Shown here piece after piece: positions 3,143 through 21,983 of a DNA stretch of 42,335 bases. Every line of letters begins with the position of its first letter. Within the stretch, counting starts at the first letter, position 1. The notes under the pieces are model-generated. The model ran no database searches, had not been told where the DNA came from, and saw nothing but the letters and a program-made list of their open reading frames with translations. A program made the position numbers and the translations under genes. The stretch spans positions 1 through 42,335 of the forward strand of contig JAKQHE010000116.1 in the NCBI GenBank assembly GCA_029573155.1, written 5' to 3'. The DNA is from a bacterium. Its GTDB lineage: Bacteria; UBP6; UBA1177; JAKLFG01.

Positions 3143-3915
3143 TGTTGCTTGCACTGATGCTACTAACCATCTCCGAATACGACCTTCTGCAAAAGGCCGC
3201 TGCCGATGGCTTCCTCTATCGCAATGTCGCCGTTGAAACGGTCGAGAAATGCCCCGCGAAAGCGACCTGCATCACCGCCGAGGGGTCGACCTACCTGCTC
3301 AAACGGCTCGACACCACCGCCGTCACGCTCGAAAAGAGCGCTGACGGCTTCGCGCTGACCATCGCACCCGACAAGAACTTCACGAACTACCGCCTGTTCA
3401 TCCGCGAAGAATCGACGGTGCGCCGCATAGAGGTGACTCAGAAACGGGTGACCGTACTCGACAAGGGATCGGTGACCGCCCTGCAACTGGTCGGCGTCGG
3501 CGCGCAGGGACCGGTCGTCATCTGGCAGAAGGATGTCCGCGCCACAGCGATCGAACCCTTCACCGGCGACCTCCTCGGCTCGATGAACGTACTCCGCAAA
3601 AAGGCGGGCCTGCCGCCGCTCACCATCGATAAAACACTCGCGCCGTTCGCCGCCGAGACCATCGCTCGTGTCAAAAAAGGAGATCTTTCGCACTACTCGG
3701 GCAGCACCGGGAGCATCCGTCACTCGGGTGTCCGCGCCAAGGAACTGGGCGAGAACCTCTTCTCGGCCACGACACTCGAACGGGCGTGGCTCATGATGCT
3801 CGCCTCGCCGTCGCACCTTTTCAACATCCTTTCCCCCTCGTTCCGCCGCTGTTTCGTCGGGACCCTTCCCGCCGAGAGCGGGCTCATCCCCGGCATCGTT
3901 ATCTTCGCCGACTGA
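3139..3915 (+). CDS. CAP/SCP-like domain protein
   Basis: Start overlaps upstream stop (ATGA); C-term LLGSMNVLRKKAGLPPLTIDKTLAPFAAETIARVKKGDLSHYSG...GENLF...AWLMMLASPSHLFNILSPSFRRCFVGT resembles the CAP fold. Confidence 0.7.
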   Translation: MMLLALMLLTISEYDLLQKAAADGFLYRNVAVETVEKCPAKATCITAEGSTYLLKRLDTTAVTLEKSADGFALTIAPDKNFTNYRLFIREESTVRRIEVTQKRVTVLDKGSVTALQLVGVGAQGPVVIWQKDVRATAIEPFTGDLLGSMNVLRKKAGLPPLTIDKTLAPFAAETIARVKKGDLSHYSGSTGSIRHSGVRAKELGENLFSATTLERAWLMMLASPSHLFNILSPSFRRCFVGTLPAESGLIPGIVIFAD

Positions 3916-15037: not shown

Positions 15038-16267
15038 TCAAAAGAAAGCGGTCGCCGAAAGTTTTAGCCCCAGACTGTCGGGCGAGGCGGCCCCTTCGGC
15101 GAAATTCATAAAGAAATAGACCGCCGGACGGACATACCCGCCGATGAGATACCCCCCGCCGACCTCCAGCCGCGTCTGGAAGAGACCGTATTCCCACTCC
15201 GGCGGCCTGATCATCATCTCATCGAACTTGAGGTGTAGCCGCGCAGAAAGTTCCAGCCCGACGATAGGGTGACCCTGTATCTCGAAAAAGGGCCAGACCG
15301 GCAGATACCATTTTTTGCCCGGATGTTTCTCGATGAGTAGCACACCGCCCGTCGAGAGCGCCAGTTTGCGATCGAACAACCATTGCCGCACCTGCAGGGC
15401 GATCGAACGGCTCACATAGCGCATCGGCGCAACGGCATACTCGTGATAGAACCAGCCGAACAGATCGGTATCAGTCGTGAAATTCCAACGCCCTTTTATG
15501 TAGAGCGCCAACCGGTCCTTATCGTTGAGCGACCCAGCCTCTTCCCTCTTGTAATAGAGGGCATAGGAGAGATGCAACCGCTTGTCGAAGAACAGTTCCC
15601 CCCCACGCAGACCGCCCCGGAACCGGAGCAGGTCGAAGGCGTCGCTCGCGTTGAGATCATCGCTGTAGAGAACGCCGGCGAACGGTTCAAGGGCCGGGAA
15701 TATCTCGTAGGAAAGGTCGCCGTAGGTGAACAGGTCGGTATCGCGGATGACGCCGCTCCCCTGTTCAGGATCGACCGCGAACGAACGGGAGACCACGCCC
15801 GTCGAGGCCGTGAAGCGAAGTCCTTCCAGCGGCTCGGCCGTCAGGTAGAGTTCTTCGTGCAGATGGTCGCGACGGTAGCCTCCGAGCGTCGCGCGTCCCT
15901 GCGTGATGCTTTTCGCGTAGTCGCCCGAATCATCGGATATCGAGGCGTGGGTCACCGTGCCTATCTTCACCTTCGGCCAGTCGTACTGGACCAGTAGTCT
16001 CCCTCGACCGAGCAGATAACTCGTTTCGACGAGGTTGGTCATATCGTGCTCGGGGAACCCGTGCAAGAAGAACAGATCGCCGCCGATGAAAAAGCCATCG
16101 ACCGGCTCGTAGAGAGCGTGCCCTGTCACGAAATAGTAACCAGGCGCCGCCGGGTCGGTCGGCTTCGACTCCATGAAAGGAACATATCCGCCTGCCGTCA
16201 CCTCACCCCCGCCATACAGTGCCACGCTCAGAGCAGAGAGCATCATCAGCGCGGCGAGGCGCCTCAT
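15038..16267 (-). CDS. Outer-membrane beta-barrel protein, last gene of the ferredoxin operon
   Basis: Signal peptide MRRLAALMMLSALSVALYGGG; alternating amphipathic strands; C-terminal ...LKLSATAFF; ATGA overlap with upstream ferredoxin. Confidence 0.75.
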   Translation of the reverse strand: MRRLAALMMLSALSVALYGGGEVTAGGYVPFMESKPTDPAAPGYYFVTGHALYEPVDGFFIGGDLFFLHGFPEHDMTNLVETSYLLGRGRLLVQYDWPKVKIGTVTHASISDDSGDYAKSITQGRATLGGYRRDHLHEELYLTAEPLEGLRFTASTGVVSRSFAVDPEQGSGVIRDTDLFTYGDLSYEIFPALEPFAGVLYSDDLNASDAFDLLRFRGGLRGGELFFDKRLHLSYALYYKREEAGSLNDKDRLALYIKGRWNFTTDTDLFGWFYHEYAVAPMRYVSRSIALQVRQWLFDRKLALSTGGVLLIEKHPGKKWYLPVWPFFEIQGHPIVGLELSARLHLKFDEMMIRPPEWEYGLFQTRLEVGGGYLIGGYVRPAVYFFMNFAEGAASPDSLGLKLSATAFF

Positions 16268-16527
16268 TGCGGCCTCCCGGTGATCGCCTGATATGGACAT
16301 TCGCGGACGCAGATACCGCATTGGGTACACTTGTCGGGGTCCACGACCGGCTTGTCCTCAGGGCCATAGAAATGTATCGCATCGTAGGGACAGGCCCGTT
16401 CGCAGACACGGCAGGTCGACCCGACACAGCGGTCGTGGTTTATCGTTATCGGGCTGTCGAGAGACGGGTCCATCCCGCAGGAGACAAGCATCCCGCCGAG
16501 CAGAAGCACGCGGATGAGGCGTCTCAT
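16264..16527 (-). CDS. 2x[4Fe-4S] ferredoxin-type lipoprotein
   Basis: MRRLIRVLLLGGMLVSCGMD lipobox; CVGSTCRVCERACP and CTQCGICVRECP. Confidence 0.88.
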   Translation of the reverse strand: MRRLIRVLLLGGMLVSCGMDPSLDSPITINHDRCVGSTCRVCERACPYDAIHFYGPEDKPVVDPDKCTQCGICVRECPYQAITGRPQ

Positions 16528-16715
16528 TTCTTCACCTCCCGCTCGACCGGAGCACCGAAAGAACAGGCCTTCACGCACAGACCGCAGTCGATGCACTTCT
16601 CAGGATCTATGACCGCCTTCCCCGTCCGCAGCACGATAGCCTTGGTCGGACAGACCGGGAGGCACTCACGGCAACCGGTACAGCGCGCCTGTTGAATATA
16701 TTGGACTTTTTTCAC
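16524..16715 (-). CDS. 2x[4Fe-4S] ferredoxin domain; annotated GTG start, probably the 3' part of a frameshifted polyferredoxin
   Basis: CTGCRECLPVCP and CIDCGLCVKACS; no Shine-Dalgarno before the GTG; frame stays open upstream to the A9 tract. Confidence 0.85.
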   Translation of the reverse strand: MKKVQYIQQARCTGCRECLPVCPTKAIVLRTGKAVIDPEKCIDCGLCVKACSFGAPVEREVKK

Positions 16716-16768
16716 CGCAGGGGGGATGGCTTGTCTCGGCGAAGACTTCTCGGAGCCGGAAGCGTCAA

Positions 16769-17053
16769 TTATTTCGTTTTTTTTTCAGCCGCGGGTTTAA
16801 CGGTCGGTCCACGGATCGCCTTGGTCGGGCATTTCTGAACGCACAAGGTGCAGTTGATACACCTCTCGGGATCGATGATGGCTTTGCCGTCCTTCATCAC
16901 TATCGCTTTTGATGGACAGGACTGCACACAAAGGGCACAGCCGATGCAGGTCTTCGGATCGACCTGATGTTTCTCCTCTTTTGAGGCAGCAGATAGAAAC
17001 AACGAGGTCACTGCGAGGAGGCAGAAAATCAGAATAAGCGACGTGCGCGGCAT
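16769..17053 (-). CDS. Exported 2x[4Fe-4S] ferredoxin (Sec-type signal peptide)
   Basis: MPRTSLILIFCLLAVTSLFLSAAS; CIGCALCVQSCP and CINCTLCVQKCP; ends GAAAAAAAAACGAAATAA. Confidence 0.9.
   Translation of the reverse strand: MPRTSLILIFCLLAVTSLFLSAASKEEKHQVDPKTCIGCALCVQSCPSKAIVMKDGKAIIDPERCINCTLCVQKCPTKAIRGPTVKPAAEKKTK
16777..16785 (-). promoter_or_regulatory. Candidate -1 frameshift slippery site (A9 run, A AAA AAA)
   Basis: 0-frame GAA AAA AAA ACG AAA TAA; a -1 shift reads AAC GAA ATA ATT GAC ... GTG AAA AAA GTC CAA with no stop into the next ferredoxin. Confidence 0.5.
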
Positions 17054-17056
17054 CGG

Positions 17057-17191
17057 TCACTCCGTGATCAGGATATCGGTGTCAAGGGCCCCATCGGGCT
17101 GGCGCGGGCCGTTCATGAGTTCGTCTCGATCGAAGTTGTCGCCGCATCCGGCAAGCAACATCGCGAAGATCACGACCAGCAGGCGGCTCAT
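17057..17191 (-). CDS. 44-aa small lipoprotein heading the ferredoxin operon (below ORF-track cutoff)
   Basis: Minus-strand ATG at 17191: MSRLLVVIFAMLLAGCGDNFDRDELMNGPRQPDGALDTDILITE*; lipobox LAGC; 3 nt before the next start. Confidence 0.7.
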   Translation of the reverse strand: MSRLLVVIFAMLLAGCGDNFDRDELMNGPRQPDGALDTDILITE

Positions 17192-17337: not shown

Positions 17338-18168
17338 ATGGCCCATAACGCCACGAAAGGAAAGATATTCCTGAAAGGCAGCAAGACATACTTCACCAGT
17401 TCGATATTCTTCCCGCCGCAGGTGCGCGCCGATGTCTTCACACTGTATGCCTTTCTGCGGGTCGCCGACGATCTGGTCGACTGCATACCCCAACGGGCCG
17501 ACGAGTTCTATGAGATGCGCAGGAAATGGCGCATCGCCTGCACCGGGACCCCGGCACACGACCCGGTCATCGATGATTTCGTGGCGCTCGCCGAACGGAT
17601 CGGCTTTGAACCGGAGTGGACCGAGGCCTTCTTCCACTCGATGGAACTCGACCTCGCCAAGAAAGAGTACAACACCCTCCCCGAAACGCTCGAATATGTC
17701 TACGGATCTGCCGAGGTGATCGGTCTCTACATGATGTGTATCATGGGCCTGCCGCCTGAATCGGAACACCCGGCACGGATGCTCGGCCGCGCGATGCAGT
17801 ACATCAATTTCATCCGGGATATCAACGAGGACATCGGGCTCGGCCGCCGTTACCTGCCGTTGCGCGATTCGTTGCTCACCTCGCTTCTGCCCGATGAGAC
17901 GCACAAGAAACCCGACGCCTTTCGCCGCTTCATCACCGAAGAGATAGAACGCTATCTCGGCTGGCAGAAGGAGGCCGAAGCAGGGTTCTGTTATCTGCCG
18001 CGCCGCTACCGGATACCGGTGGCGACCGCCTCCGACATGTATGCATGGACCGCCGCCACGATACGGCGCGACCCCTTCGTCGTGTACGAACGCAAGGTCA
18101 AACCGTCGCGTCTGCGGATAGTCGCCAACATCATTCGCCGCTTCGCGGCCATCAGGGAGTGCCCATGA
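17338..18168 (+). CDS. crtB: Phytoene/squalene synthase family protein
   Basis: SSIFFPPQVRADVFTLYAFLRVADDLVD; MQYINFIRDINEDIGLGRRYLP. Confidence 0.93.
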   Translation: MAHNATKGKIFLKGSKTYFTSSIFFPPQVRADVFTLYAFLRVADDLVDCIPQRADEFYEMRRKWRIACTGTPAHDPVIDDFVALAERIGFEPEWTEAFFHSMELDLAKKEYNTLPETLEYVYGSAEVIGLYMMCIMGLPPESEHPARMLGRAMQYINFIRDINEDIGLGRRYLPLRDSLLTSLLPDETHKKPDAFRRFITEEIERYLGWQKEAEAGFCYLPRRYRIPVATASDMYAWTAATIRRDPFVVYERKVKPSRLRIVANIIRRFAAIRECP

Positions 18169-19220
18169 AGAAGTACCTTGCCGCTTCCAAGGAACGGACC
18201 ACCGCCTATCTCGGGCGATTCCTCGCCGACAAGGAGACCGAACTGGCCCCCATCGGGCCGCGCGCTGCGGCGGTGGCCCGTGACATCCACGAGTTCTGCA
18301 CGCGCGGCAAGATGATCCGCGCCGCGATGACACTGCTGGGCTGGGAGGCGGCCGGCGGCAGACCGAGCGACACCGTCATACCGGTCGCCGCCGCGATGGA
18401 GATGATCCACGCGGGACTGCTCATCCACGACGATGTGATGGACCGGGATGACTTCCGGCGCGGCAAACCGGCGTTCCACCGCCGCTACGCCGACGCGCTT
18501 GCCCACGAGACCAAGGAGCCGCGCCACACCGGCGAGGCGCTCGCGATCTGCGCCGGCGATGTCGCCTTCTTCCTTGCCGCCGAGTCGGTCATGACCGCCG
18601 CGATACCCGATCCGCACGGTGCCGCGATGCGCCGGACCTTCTTTCGCGAATGTGTGCTGGTCGGCCTGGGTCAGATGGACGATGTCTACCTCGGCGCACG
18701 GCTCGCGCCGGTGACGGTCGCCGATATCCTGCCGGTATACCGCTACAAGACGGCGCGATATACGTTCTCCATGCCGCTCATCCTCGGCGCCATCGCGGCC
18801 GGAGGCGATGCGAAGGTACGCGACGGACTCGATGCCGTCGGCGAAAAGATAGGTACGCTCTTTCAGATAAAAGACGACGAACTGGGACTCTTCGGCGAAG
18901 AGGCCGACATCGGCAAGCCGACCGGCTCCGACATCCGCGAGGGAAAGAAGACCATCCTCTTCTCGCTTCTCACCGACATGGCGCACGGCACCGACAAAGA
19001 GCGGCTGTCGCGGACGCTCGGGAACCCCGATATCGGCTCCGACGACATCGCCTTTGTCCGGACACTGGCCGAAAAGAGCGGCGCGCTGGGCAAGGTCCGC
19101 GCGCAGGCGGCCACCATCGACGGCGAGGCGCGCGGTCTTATCGCCGCGCTCACTGTCGGCGACGAGGTGAAACGGCTCCTGAACGAACTCATCGACTACA
19201 ACCGCGACCGGGGATTCTAG
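18165..19220 (+). CDS. crtE: Polyprenyl (geranylgeranyl) diphosphate synthase
   Basis: LLIHDDVMDRDDFRRGKPAFHRRY; QIKDDELGLFGEEADIGKPTGSDIREGKKTIL; ATGA overlap. Confidence 0.93.
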   Translation: MKKYLAASKERTTAYLGRFLADKETELAPIGPRAAAVARDIHEFCTRGKMIRAAMTLLGWEAAGGRPSDTVIPVAAAMEMIHAGLLIHDDVMDRDDFRRGKPAFHRRYADALAHETKEPRHTGEALAICAGDVAFFLAAESVMTAAIPDPHGAAMRRTFFRECVLVGLGQMDDVYLGARLAPVTVADILPVYRYKTARYTFSMPLILGAIAAGGDAKVRDGLDAVGEKIGTLFQIKDDELGLFGEEADIGKPTGSDIREGKKTILFSLLTDMAHGTDKERLSRTLGNPDIGSDDIAFVRTLAEKSGALGKVRAQAATIDGEARGLIAALTVGDEVKRLLNELIDYNRDRGF

Positions 19221-19894
19221 TGAGCGCCTATTTGGCCGTCAACCTCTGCGTCATCGCCCTCCCGCTTTTATTCTCGTTCGATAAACGGGTCGCCTTCTGG
19301 CGCAAATGGCCCGCAGCTCTCACCGCCATCGTCACGGTCGGCGCCATCTACCTCGCGTGGGACAGCCATGCGACCGGCGCGGGGCACTGGGCATTCAACC
19401 CCGCCTATGTCGGCGATCTGCGACTGGCCGGACTCCCTATCGAAGAGTGGCTCTTTTTCGTCACGGTCCCCTATGCGTGCCTCTTCACCTACGAATGTAT
19501 CCGCGTCTATCTCGCACCGGGCCGTGTCCCCTTCATGCGCCCCGTCCTCGCGGCGGCGGCGGTCGCCGCCATCATCCTCGCCTTTCTAAGCGTCGGGAAA
19601 GGATATGCCTTCCTTGCCTTCTCGGGGCTCTTCCTCGTGCTGGTCTTCTATCTGGTCTTCCTGCCGCGGCTCACCGAGGAACGATCGTTCGTCGTCGCGA
19701 TGGGGATATTCTTCCTCCTGTTCGGCATCGTCAATTCGGTGCTGACCGGCATACCCATCGTCACCTATGACCCGGCGGCGATCACCGGCCTGCGCATCGG
19801 CACCATCCCGATAGAGGACTTCGTCTACAACTTCATCATGCTCGCGGGACATCTCGCGATATATCGCACCATCCTCGATCGGAGATCGGCATGA
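19220..19894 (+). CDS. Lycopene cyclase, CrtYc/Yd fusion-type membrane protein (GTG start)
   Basis: Start overlaps the crtE stop (TAGTG); WHATGAGHW-like segment HATGAGHWAFNPAYVGDLRLAGLPIEEWLFFVTVPYACLFTYE and GTIPIEDFVYNF are lycopene cyclase domain repeats. Confidence 0.88.
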   Translation: MSAYLAVNLCVIALPLLFSFDKRVAFWRKWPAALTAIVTVGAIYLAWDSHATGAGHWAFNPAYVGDLRLAGLPIEEWLFFVTVPYACLFTYECIRVYLAPGRVPFMRPVLAAAAVAAIILAFLSVGKGYAFLAFSGLFLVLVFYLVFLPRLTEERSFVVAMGIFFLLFGIVNSVLTGIPIVTYDPAAITGLRIGTIPIEDFVYNFIMLAGHLAIYRTILDRRSA

Positions 19895-21366
19895 AGCGGA
19901 TCGCGGTCATCGGCGCGGGGTTCGGCGGGCTTGCGGCCTCTGCGATACTGGCCCACCGCGGCTACGCGGTCGAGGTCTTCGAGCAGCAGTCCGGTCCCGG
20001 CGGCAAGGCGGGCGACCTGCGCCTCGACGGCTGGCGCTTCGACACCGGACCGTCGCTCTTCACGATGCCGGCGGTCTTCGAGAAGTGCTTCGCGCTGGCA
20101 GGCGGCGACCTGAACGCGGCGCTCACCCACGAACCGATGGAACTCATCACCCGCTACTTCTGGGATGATGGCTCGACGCTCGACGCATGGCAGGACACCG
20201 ACCGTTTCGCCACCGAGGTCGAAAAGAAACTGGGGGACGGCGCCGAAGCGGTAAAACGCTATCTCAAGCGGGCGAAAAAGATATACGACACCACCGCCGA
20301 CATCTTTCTCTACGGGGACCCGTGGGACCCCCTGAACATCGTTCGTCTCTCGGGTTGGCGGGCGCTCGCGGGACTCCCCTTCATCGCCCCCTTCACGACG
20401 ATGGACCGCTTCCACCGCCGTTATTTCAAAGATGAACGGACGATACAACTCTTCGACCGCTACGCCACCTACACCGGGTCCGACCCCTACCGCGCTCCAG
20501 CGACGCTCGCCATCATCCCTCATGTCGAATACGCCATCGGCGCCCGTAACCTGCGCGGCGGGGTGACGGCGCTCGTCCGGGCGATGCATACGCTCGCCGA
20601 AAAGAACGGCGCGATATTCCACTTCAATGCGCCGGTCGACCGGATACTCAAGAAGAACGAACGCGCCGCAGGCATCGTCACGGGCGGCGCGGACATCCCC
20701 TTTGACGCGGTCGTCTCCAACGCCGATGTCACCCACACATACCTCTCGCTCCTCCAGAGCGAGTCGGAGGCGGCCGATCGCTACCAGCGGCACGAACCGT
20801 CGGTATCGGGCGTCGTCTTCTACTGGGCGATGCGCGAGACCTTCCCCGAACTGACCGTCAACAACATCTTCTTCTCCGCCGACTATCGCCGCGAGTTCGA
20901 GGAGATATTCGACCGCCATCGATGCGGATCGGACCCGACCGTCTATGTCAACATCACCTCGAAGTTCGACGCGGCCGACGCACCGGCGGGCGGCGAGAAC
21001 TGGTTGGTCCTCGTGAACGCCCCCTACGACGACCATCAGGATTGGGATATCGAGGTGACCCGCCTGCGCGACACCGTCATCGCGAAGGTCTCGCGGCTCA
21101 TCGGGCGCGACATCGAGCCCTTCATCGCCCACGAACAGGTCCGCACCCCGAAAATACTACGCGAACTCACCAACACCAATCACGGTTCCATCTACGGCAT
21201 CTCCTCCAATGACCCGATGGCCGCCTTCCGCCGCCAGCCGGCGAGATGCGCCGATCACCCGGGAGTGTTCTTCTGCGGCGGTTCGGCCCACCCGGGCGGC
21301 GGGATGCCGCTCGCGACCCTGTCGGGGATGATGGCAGCCGACGCCGTGACGCGGAGGATGAAATGA
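19891..21366 (+). CDS. crtI: Phytoene desaturase
   Basis: AVIGAGFGGLAASAILAHRGYAVEVFEQQSGPGGKAG FAD motif; C-term FFCGGSAHPGGGMPLATLSG. Confidence 0.94.
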   Translation: MKRIAVIGAGFGGLAASAILAHRGYAVEVFEQQSGPGGKAGDLRLDGWRFDTGPSLFTMPAVFEKCFALAGGDLNAALTHEPMELITRYFWDDGSTLDAWQDTDRFATEVEKKLGDGAEAVKRYLKRAKKIYDTTADIFLYGDPWDPLNIVRLSGWRALAGLPFIAPFTTMDRFHRRYFKDERTIQLFDRYATYTGSDPYRAPATLAIIPHVEYAIGARNLRGGVTALVRAMHTLAEKNGAIFHFNAPVDRILKKNERAAGIVTGGADIPFDAVVSNADVTHTYLSLLQSESEAADRYQRHEPSVSGVVFYWAMRETFPELTVNNIFFSADYRREFEEIFDRHRCGSDPTVYVNITSKFDAADAPAGGENWLVLVNAPYDDHQDWDIEVTRLRDTVIAKVSRLIGRDIEPFIAHEQVRTPKILRELTNTNHGSIYGISSNDPMAAFRRQPARCADHPGVFFCGGSAHPGGGMPLATLSGMMAADAVTRRMK

Positions 21367-21983
21367 AGAAGCACTGGTTCATCATCGCGCTCAGTATTTT
21401 CTACCTCGTTGGCATCGCGGGGCATCTTTTCGCCGAGACCTTACCATTTTTCCTGTCGATAACGCCGCTCGTGCTCCTTGCTTTCACGCTCATCATGCTC
21501 GTCCCGTCGGTGCGCGACGATAAAAAGATGCTCCTCTGGTTCCCGCTCACCTACGCCGCCACCTTCGCGCTCGAGGCGCTGGGGGTTGCGACCGGCCTTG
21601 TCTTCGGCCCCTACCACTACGGCGCGACGCTCGGTCCCAAAGTACTTGCCGTGCCGCTAATCATCGGGGCGAACTGGGTGATCGTCGTGCTGGGGGCGCT
21701 CCGCCTCTCGGAACGACTGACGGTGCGACCGCTTTCCTCGGCGCTCGTCGTCGCGGCGCTCGCCACCGGGTTCGACTGGGTGATGGAGCCAGTCGCGATA
21801 CGGCTCGACTACTGGAACTGGCATACGGCGGAGATCCCGCTCCAGAACTACGCCGCGTGGTTCATCACCGCCGCCATCGCAGGCTATATCTACCGCCTCT
21901 TCAAGATGAAGACAAAGACCATTCTCCCCGCGTGGTATTTCATCATTCAGTTGGTGTTCTTCGCGGTATTGCGCTGGGCGTGA
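21363..21983 (+). CDS. Carotenoid biosynthesis membrane protein, CruF/DUF422-type hydratase
   Basis: FALEALGVATGLVFGPYHYGATLGPKVLAVPLIIGANWVI; DWVMEPVAIRLDYWNWH; ATGA overlap with crtI. Confidence 0.85.
   Translation: MKKHWFIIALSIFYLVGIAGHLFAETLPFFLSITPLVLLAFTLIMLVPSVRDDKKMLLWFPLTYAATFALEALGVATGLVFGPYHYGATLGPKVLAVPLIIGANWVIVVLGALRLSERLTVRPLSSALVVAALATGFDWVMEPVAIRLDYWNWHTAEIPLQNYAAWFITAAIAGYIYRLFKMKTKTILPAWYFIIQLVFFAVLRWA

Follow-up and report, generated by a model that had tools for sequence, protein, structure and literature searches.

A conserved run of nine or ten adenines as a probable recoding site between two exported ferredoxins in an uncultured bacterial order

The ferredoxin operon and its overlapping frames

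The window, by which we mean the whole 42-kb stretch of DNA that was analysed, belongs to a 2.69-Mb genome (G000) and, like all the sequences considered here, derives from a metagenome assembly. The host order is a little-known, uncultured bacterial lineage. On the minus strand the window carries an operon in which a small lipoprotein is followed by two ferredoxin frames (ORF1 and ORF2), a ferredoxin lipoprotein and a barrel-like protein, in that order. Its features are as follows.

17057 to 17191, minus strand: small lipoprotein of 44 aa (MSRLLVVIFAMLLAGCGDNFDRDE...), first gene of the operon; lipobox LLAGC recognized by direct reading
16769 to 17053, minus strand: ORF1, an exported 2x[4Fe-4S] ferredoxin of 94 aa (Pfam Fer4/Fer4_7); ATG start with GGAG upstream
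16777 to 16785, minus strand: A9 slippery run, GAA AAA AAA ACG in frame, containing A AAA AAA; identical in G001, G002 and G004
16524 to 16787, minus strand: ORF2 open frame, a linker and a second 2x[4Fe-4S] ferredoxin (Pfam), -1 relative to ORF1
16713 to 16715, minus strand: GTG, in G000 the only ATG, GTG or TTG that the ORF2 frame offers ahead of the first cysteine; no Shine-Dalgarno sequence, preceded by CATCCCCCCTGCG
16524 to 17053, minus strand: trans-frame product of 176 aa, an exported four-cluster (16-Cys) ferredoxin predicted from a -1 change at the A9 run
16264 to 16527, minus strand: ferredoxin lipoprotein of 87 aa with two cluster motifs; GGGAGG upstream, ATGA overlap with the ORF2 stop
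15038 to 16267, minus strand: exported 409-aa protein with a C-terminal Phe, a putative outer-membrane beta-barrel

ORF1, the zero-frame product of the slip site, begins with a signal peptide that has no twin arginine; the ORF2 frame, opened by a TGA at 16787-16785 and closed by a stop at 16526-16524, has no signal peptide of its own. Both score above the cut-off for Fer4 and Fer4_7, and each domain carries two CxxCxxCxxxC motifs, the final motif of ORF2 ending in CS rather than CP. The 3′ end of ORF1 reads GCG GCT GAA AAA AAA ACG AAA TAA, the TAA beginning 5 nt past the A9, which is the longest homopolymer of the whole window. The first-pass annotation had described this ending, an A9 followed by a -1 frame that stays open into the second ferredoxin, and had noted that the only start available to that ferredoxin is a GTG lacking a Shine-Dalgarno sequence. 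Both observations proved correct when the sequence was re-read, the latter for the stretch before the first cysteine in G000. Across the junction the trans-frame protein would read ...PAAEKK-NEIIDASGSEKSSPRQAIPPAVKKVQYIQQARCTGC..., with one signal peptide and four cluster motifs.

The remaining genes of the operon are less readily classified. The counterpart of the small lipoprotein carries an extra ferredoxin domain in G006, in G018 and in a paralogous operon of G004. Of eight loci, seven have a homologue of the 409-aa protein behind the ferredoxins (identity 27-81% for the relatives), the exception being G006, where none could be established. The protein had no match in Pfam, NCBIfam or, by profile search, the PDB, and AlphaFold2, run on it with three relatives, returned an uninformative model with a pLDDT of 25; its signal sequence, terminal Phe and synteny suggest that it is probably an outer-membrane beta-barrel. 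Beside the operon, and divergent from it on the plus strand, lies a carotenoid-type gene cluster (17338-21983) that begins with a phytoene synthase recognized by Pfam (17338-18168) and continues with open reading frames that by appearance are prenyl-synthase-like, cyclase-like and desaturase-like. Phytoene synthase adjoins the ferredoxin operon in G001, G002 and G004 as well.

The proposed slip site and its relatives

The arrangement recurs in six loci of five genomes, to which we refer as the slip loci. Four of the genomes (G000, G001, G002 and G004) represent two genera of one family, f1, and at least two separate submissions lie behind their public records (JAKLFG/JAKLIW and CALMRE); G004 contributes a second, paralogous copy of the whole operon, and the fifth genome, G006, belongs to another family of the same order. 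A scan of viral contigs found no relatives. The four f1 genomes share an identical 24-nt end of ORF1 (GCGGCTGAAAAAAAAACGAAATAA), together with the A9, the stop and the open frame at -1. Codons at the slip site are identical in 8 of 8 columns, against 41 of 103 other conserved-residue columns, for which a simple product gives P of about 6e-4, a value that overstates independence given the kinship of the f1 genomes; part of this identity may reflect coding in two frames. In the paralogous operon of G004, which lies within G004:C1:147500-155000, ORF1 ends GAA AAA AAA AAG TAG, an A10 from which a -1 change is needed to enter an open, acidic linker of 63 codons, and G006 reads TCA AAA AAA AAA TAA, again an A10 that needs -1. 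These two loci still require -1 because their 3′ contexts (AAAAAAAAAATAA and GAAAAAAAAAAGTAG) differ from that of f1. Comparison of run length and frame in relatives, which the first-pass annotation had proposed, thus yields an A9 or A10 with -1 geometry in every slip locus; it did not yield the closed frames and independent ribosome-binding sites that would have spoken against a frame change, the overlap being open in all six.

Homopolymers are prone to sequencing and assembly error, and the real gene could be an ordinary fusion with ten adenines, as it is in genome G022, where an in-frame fusion carries an A10. The first-pass annotation had itself named a true run of ten as the sign of such an error. 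But nine adenines are read in four genomes, from two genera and at least two submissions, so that a shared homopolymer error is unlikely, and the loci that do have ten need a -1 change all the same, their 3′ context being different. We regard this explanation as extremely improbable.

The frame beyond the run appears to be constrained. The ORF2 linker is free of stops in all six slip loci (168 codons summed), its length differs between loci by whole codons, and all eight ORF2 cysteines are kept in each of them. By shuffling, the openness of the longest linker alone (the 63 codons of the G004 paralogue) has a P of 0.02; multiplied over the six loci as though they were independent, the probability falls to about 10^-4.25, a figure that overstates the case because four of them are close kin. 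By sequence comparison, the combination of run, stop and -1 geometry is more than chance, recurring as it does in six loci of five genomes.

ORF2 might instead be a separate gene, translated from its own GTG or ATG or by termination and reinitiation past the ORF1 stop. Such an internal start is conceivable in G002 and G004 because an ATG lies three codons ahead of the first cysteine, and G000 has the GTG at 16715-16713. Neither ATG is accompanied by a Shine-Dalgarno sequence or a signal peptide, the GTG of the window is replaced by GTA or GTT in relatives and lacks a Shine-Dalgarno sequence too, and G001 and G006 have no ATG, GTG or TTG at all in the stretch of ORF2 that runs from its opening stop to its first cysteine. 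Independent translation would also leave open -1 linkers of up to 63 codons to be accounted for, and its product would have no signal peptide, yet the fused homologues whose N-terminus is visible are exported. Separate genes therefore seem to us improbable.

The fused homologues hold both ferredoxins in a single frame and are found in G022, a genome of the same order, in G018, in a Cloacimonadota metagenome-assembled genome (L049) and in G030 (L016). Their existence indicates that the long product is a natural form of the protein. Like the window locus, the ferredoxins of G022, L049 and L016 consist of a signal peptide, two 2x[4Fe-4S] domains and a linker; unlike it, they need no frame change. 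L049 and L016 are the more distant of these exported four-cluster proteins. The fused gene of G018 has no A-run, and an assembly gap of 100 N's conceals its N-terminus. That of G022 (L131, G022:C195:6500-14500, 3678-3687) has ten adenines at the corresponding position of the linker, GAA AAA AAA AAG GTC. Since its default frame is already fused, slippage in G022 would shorten the protein: translation would end five residues past a -1 slip, or 21 past a +1 slip, giving a short form. The A10 of G022 may be incidental, lysine-rich linkers favoring A-runs.

The known fused homologues could also be taken to mean that the window holds a decaying pseudogene, a once-fused gene split by a frameshift mutation. 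Decay is hard to reconcile with a slip state that spans genera and another family, or with an ORF2 that has retained its frame and all its cysteines, and we give this explanation almost no weight. Phylogeny did not discriminate between a single and a repeated origin of the slip state, or between slip and fusion as the ancestral condition.

Long A-runs are rare in these genomes, with 19 distinct runs of nine or more in the 2.69 Mb of G000 and 15 to 23 nine-base A matches per f1 genome. We screened the 68 distinct runs of at least nine adenines in G000, G001, G002 and G004 for an open reading frame that ends at the run with a long new frame beyond it, the G004 paralogue being handled outside this screen. 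A genuine start-less fusion junction was found only at the ferredoxin runs among the 68, with three runs flagged as +1 transitions (L147, L176 and L198) judged by the flag alone. Other candidates were set aside on inspection. L195, the sole other start-less -1 hit, consists of antisense frames beside mscL; at L143 and L188 the A9 precedes GGAGG and an ATG, that is, an ordinary start; and L146, with its counterpart L185, is a +1 case at the 3′ end of a mazG-like gene, where the downstream frame has its own start.

The slip loci thus present a conserved slippery run at the overlap of two frames, a constrained downstream coding frame and a downstream start that is missing from G001 and G006 and weak or not conserved elsewhere, all of them among the marks by which programmed frameshifting or slippage is recognized. 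The proposal that a -1 change at the A9 fuses the two ferredoxins is supported by the six loci, by the fused homologues and by the lack of an ORF2 start in G001 and G006. We conclude that the A9 or A10 is very probably a conserved programmed recoding site which, by whichever mechanism, yields exported ferredoxins of two and of four clusters.

Polymerase or ribosome

We suspect that the process unfolds in the following way. Most messages or ribosomes would remain in the zero frame and stop at the nearby TAA, giving the exported two-cluster ferredoxin. A fraction would be read in the -1 frame and give the exported four-cluster ferredoxin. The likeliest cause is an extra A inserted by RNA polymerase within the run; the other is a backward slip of the ribosome by one base on A AAA AAA. 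From the comparative evidence we infer that slippage does occur in the cell.

Slippage by RNA polymerase is efficient at nine A's or T's (PMC5009743), and all six slip loci have a homopolymer of at least this size. Classical -1 ribosomal frameshifting, which would differ in mechanism only, is a real if less probable alternative. Every slip locus has A AAA AAA in phase, as in -1 frameshifting of the Escherichia coli dnaX type, and in the G004 paralogue A AAA AAG abuts the TAG stop; both heptamers are known sites of programmed ribosomal frameshifting (PMC3711429). The stimulators that accompany the E. coli dnaX type were not found at the slip loci: folding of 70 and 100 nt downstream of the run gave no consistent RNA structure (z between -1.25 and +1.38), and upstream of it nothing resembling a Shine-Dalgarno sequence was seen. 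Nine to ten adenines are moreover retained where seven would suffice. The G000 genome encodes tRNA-Lys with both UUU and CUU anticodons, a situation cited for Thermus dnaX as unfavorable to ribosomal slippage at AAG (PMC5009743), though with little bearing on an AAA AAA site. With no stimulator in evidence and a run as long as those at which polymerase slips, we favor transcriptional slippage over the ribosomal shift as the somewhat more probable mechanism; the A10 kept in the fused gene of G022 leans the same way. Both kinds of slippage may act together.

Several known systems resemble the one proposed. Among them are the -1 genes for the Mg/Co chelatase subunit ChlD (PMC3711429, PMC9227772), which also combine an A-run, a -1 change and a shorter zero-frame product, with single-ORF homologues elsewhere, in a protein family unrelated to ferredoxins. 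For chlD the frameshifting has been measured, and its efficiency increases with the length of the run: in E. coli, -1 poly-A cassettes yielded 10% with a run of 7 A's, 40% with 9 and 63% with 11 (PMC3711429). In Citrobacter rodentium, transcriptional slippage of 20-25% was demonstrated experimentally at an A11 in tssM (PMC4256274), where, as at the window locus, an A-run precedes a premature stop with no nearby stimulators and two length variants result. Extra A's restore the full-length frame of tssM, as we propose for the ferredoxin A9; the ferredoxin case, unlike tssM, is known from comparison of sequences alone, yet it has been kept across genera and families. The dnaX gene of Thermus thermophilus, following the account in PMC5009743, resembles the window locus in its run of nine (T's in this case), its two products and its two tRNA-Lys species. 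Its zero-frame product is the long one, whereas that of the window locus is the short one; the default product of G022 is likewise long.

Export and biological meaning

Models for TatC and TatA/B/E matched none of 25 genomes of the order, many of them more than 95% complete; the same models matched all three genomes of the phylum's other order and 11 of 14 controls. With Tat missing from the order, the ferredoxins probably leave the cytoplasm through Sec, and the ORF1 signal peptides, which have no twin arginine, are of a piece with this. The ferredoxins would then probably be exported unfolded and acquire their clusters afterwards, which would be unusual. We suggest that the proteins of the operon pass electrons among exported partners and so form an extracytoplasmic chain.

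That a sequence as mutable as a homopolymer has been retained in different genera and families speaks for a use of both ferredoxin lengths, or of the ratio between them, in the cell; we infer that both forms matter. One may speculate further that polymerase slippage throughout the order sets the ratio of two- to four-cluster exported ferredoxins, with the default reversed in G022, where the A10 is kept, and that these Tat-less hosts load Fe-S clusters outside the cytoplasm and use ferredoxins, lipoproteins and barrel as a route to the cell surface. We consider this broader scheme rather unlikely in its entirety.

In the open-access literature we searched, no case was found in which recoding alters how many Fe-S clusters an electron carrier holds. 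The mechanism of recoding is known; its use in a ferredoxin, and the conservation of that use, appear to be undescribed in that literature. Gene finders would split a gene of this kind, and ORF2 would pass for a separate cytoplasmic ferredoxin. Read as one recoded gene, the locus brings into view a lineage in which several Fe-S proteins are exported in the absence of Tat.
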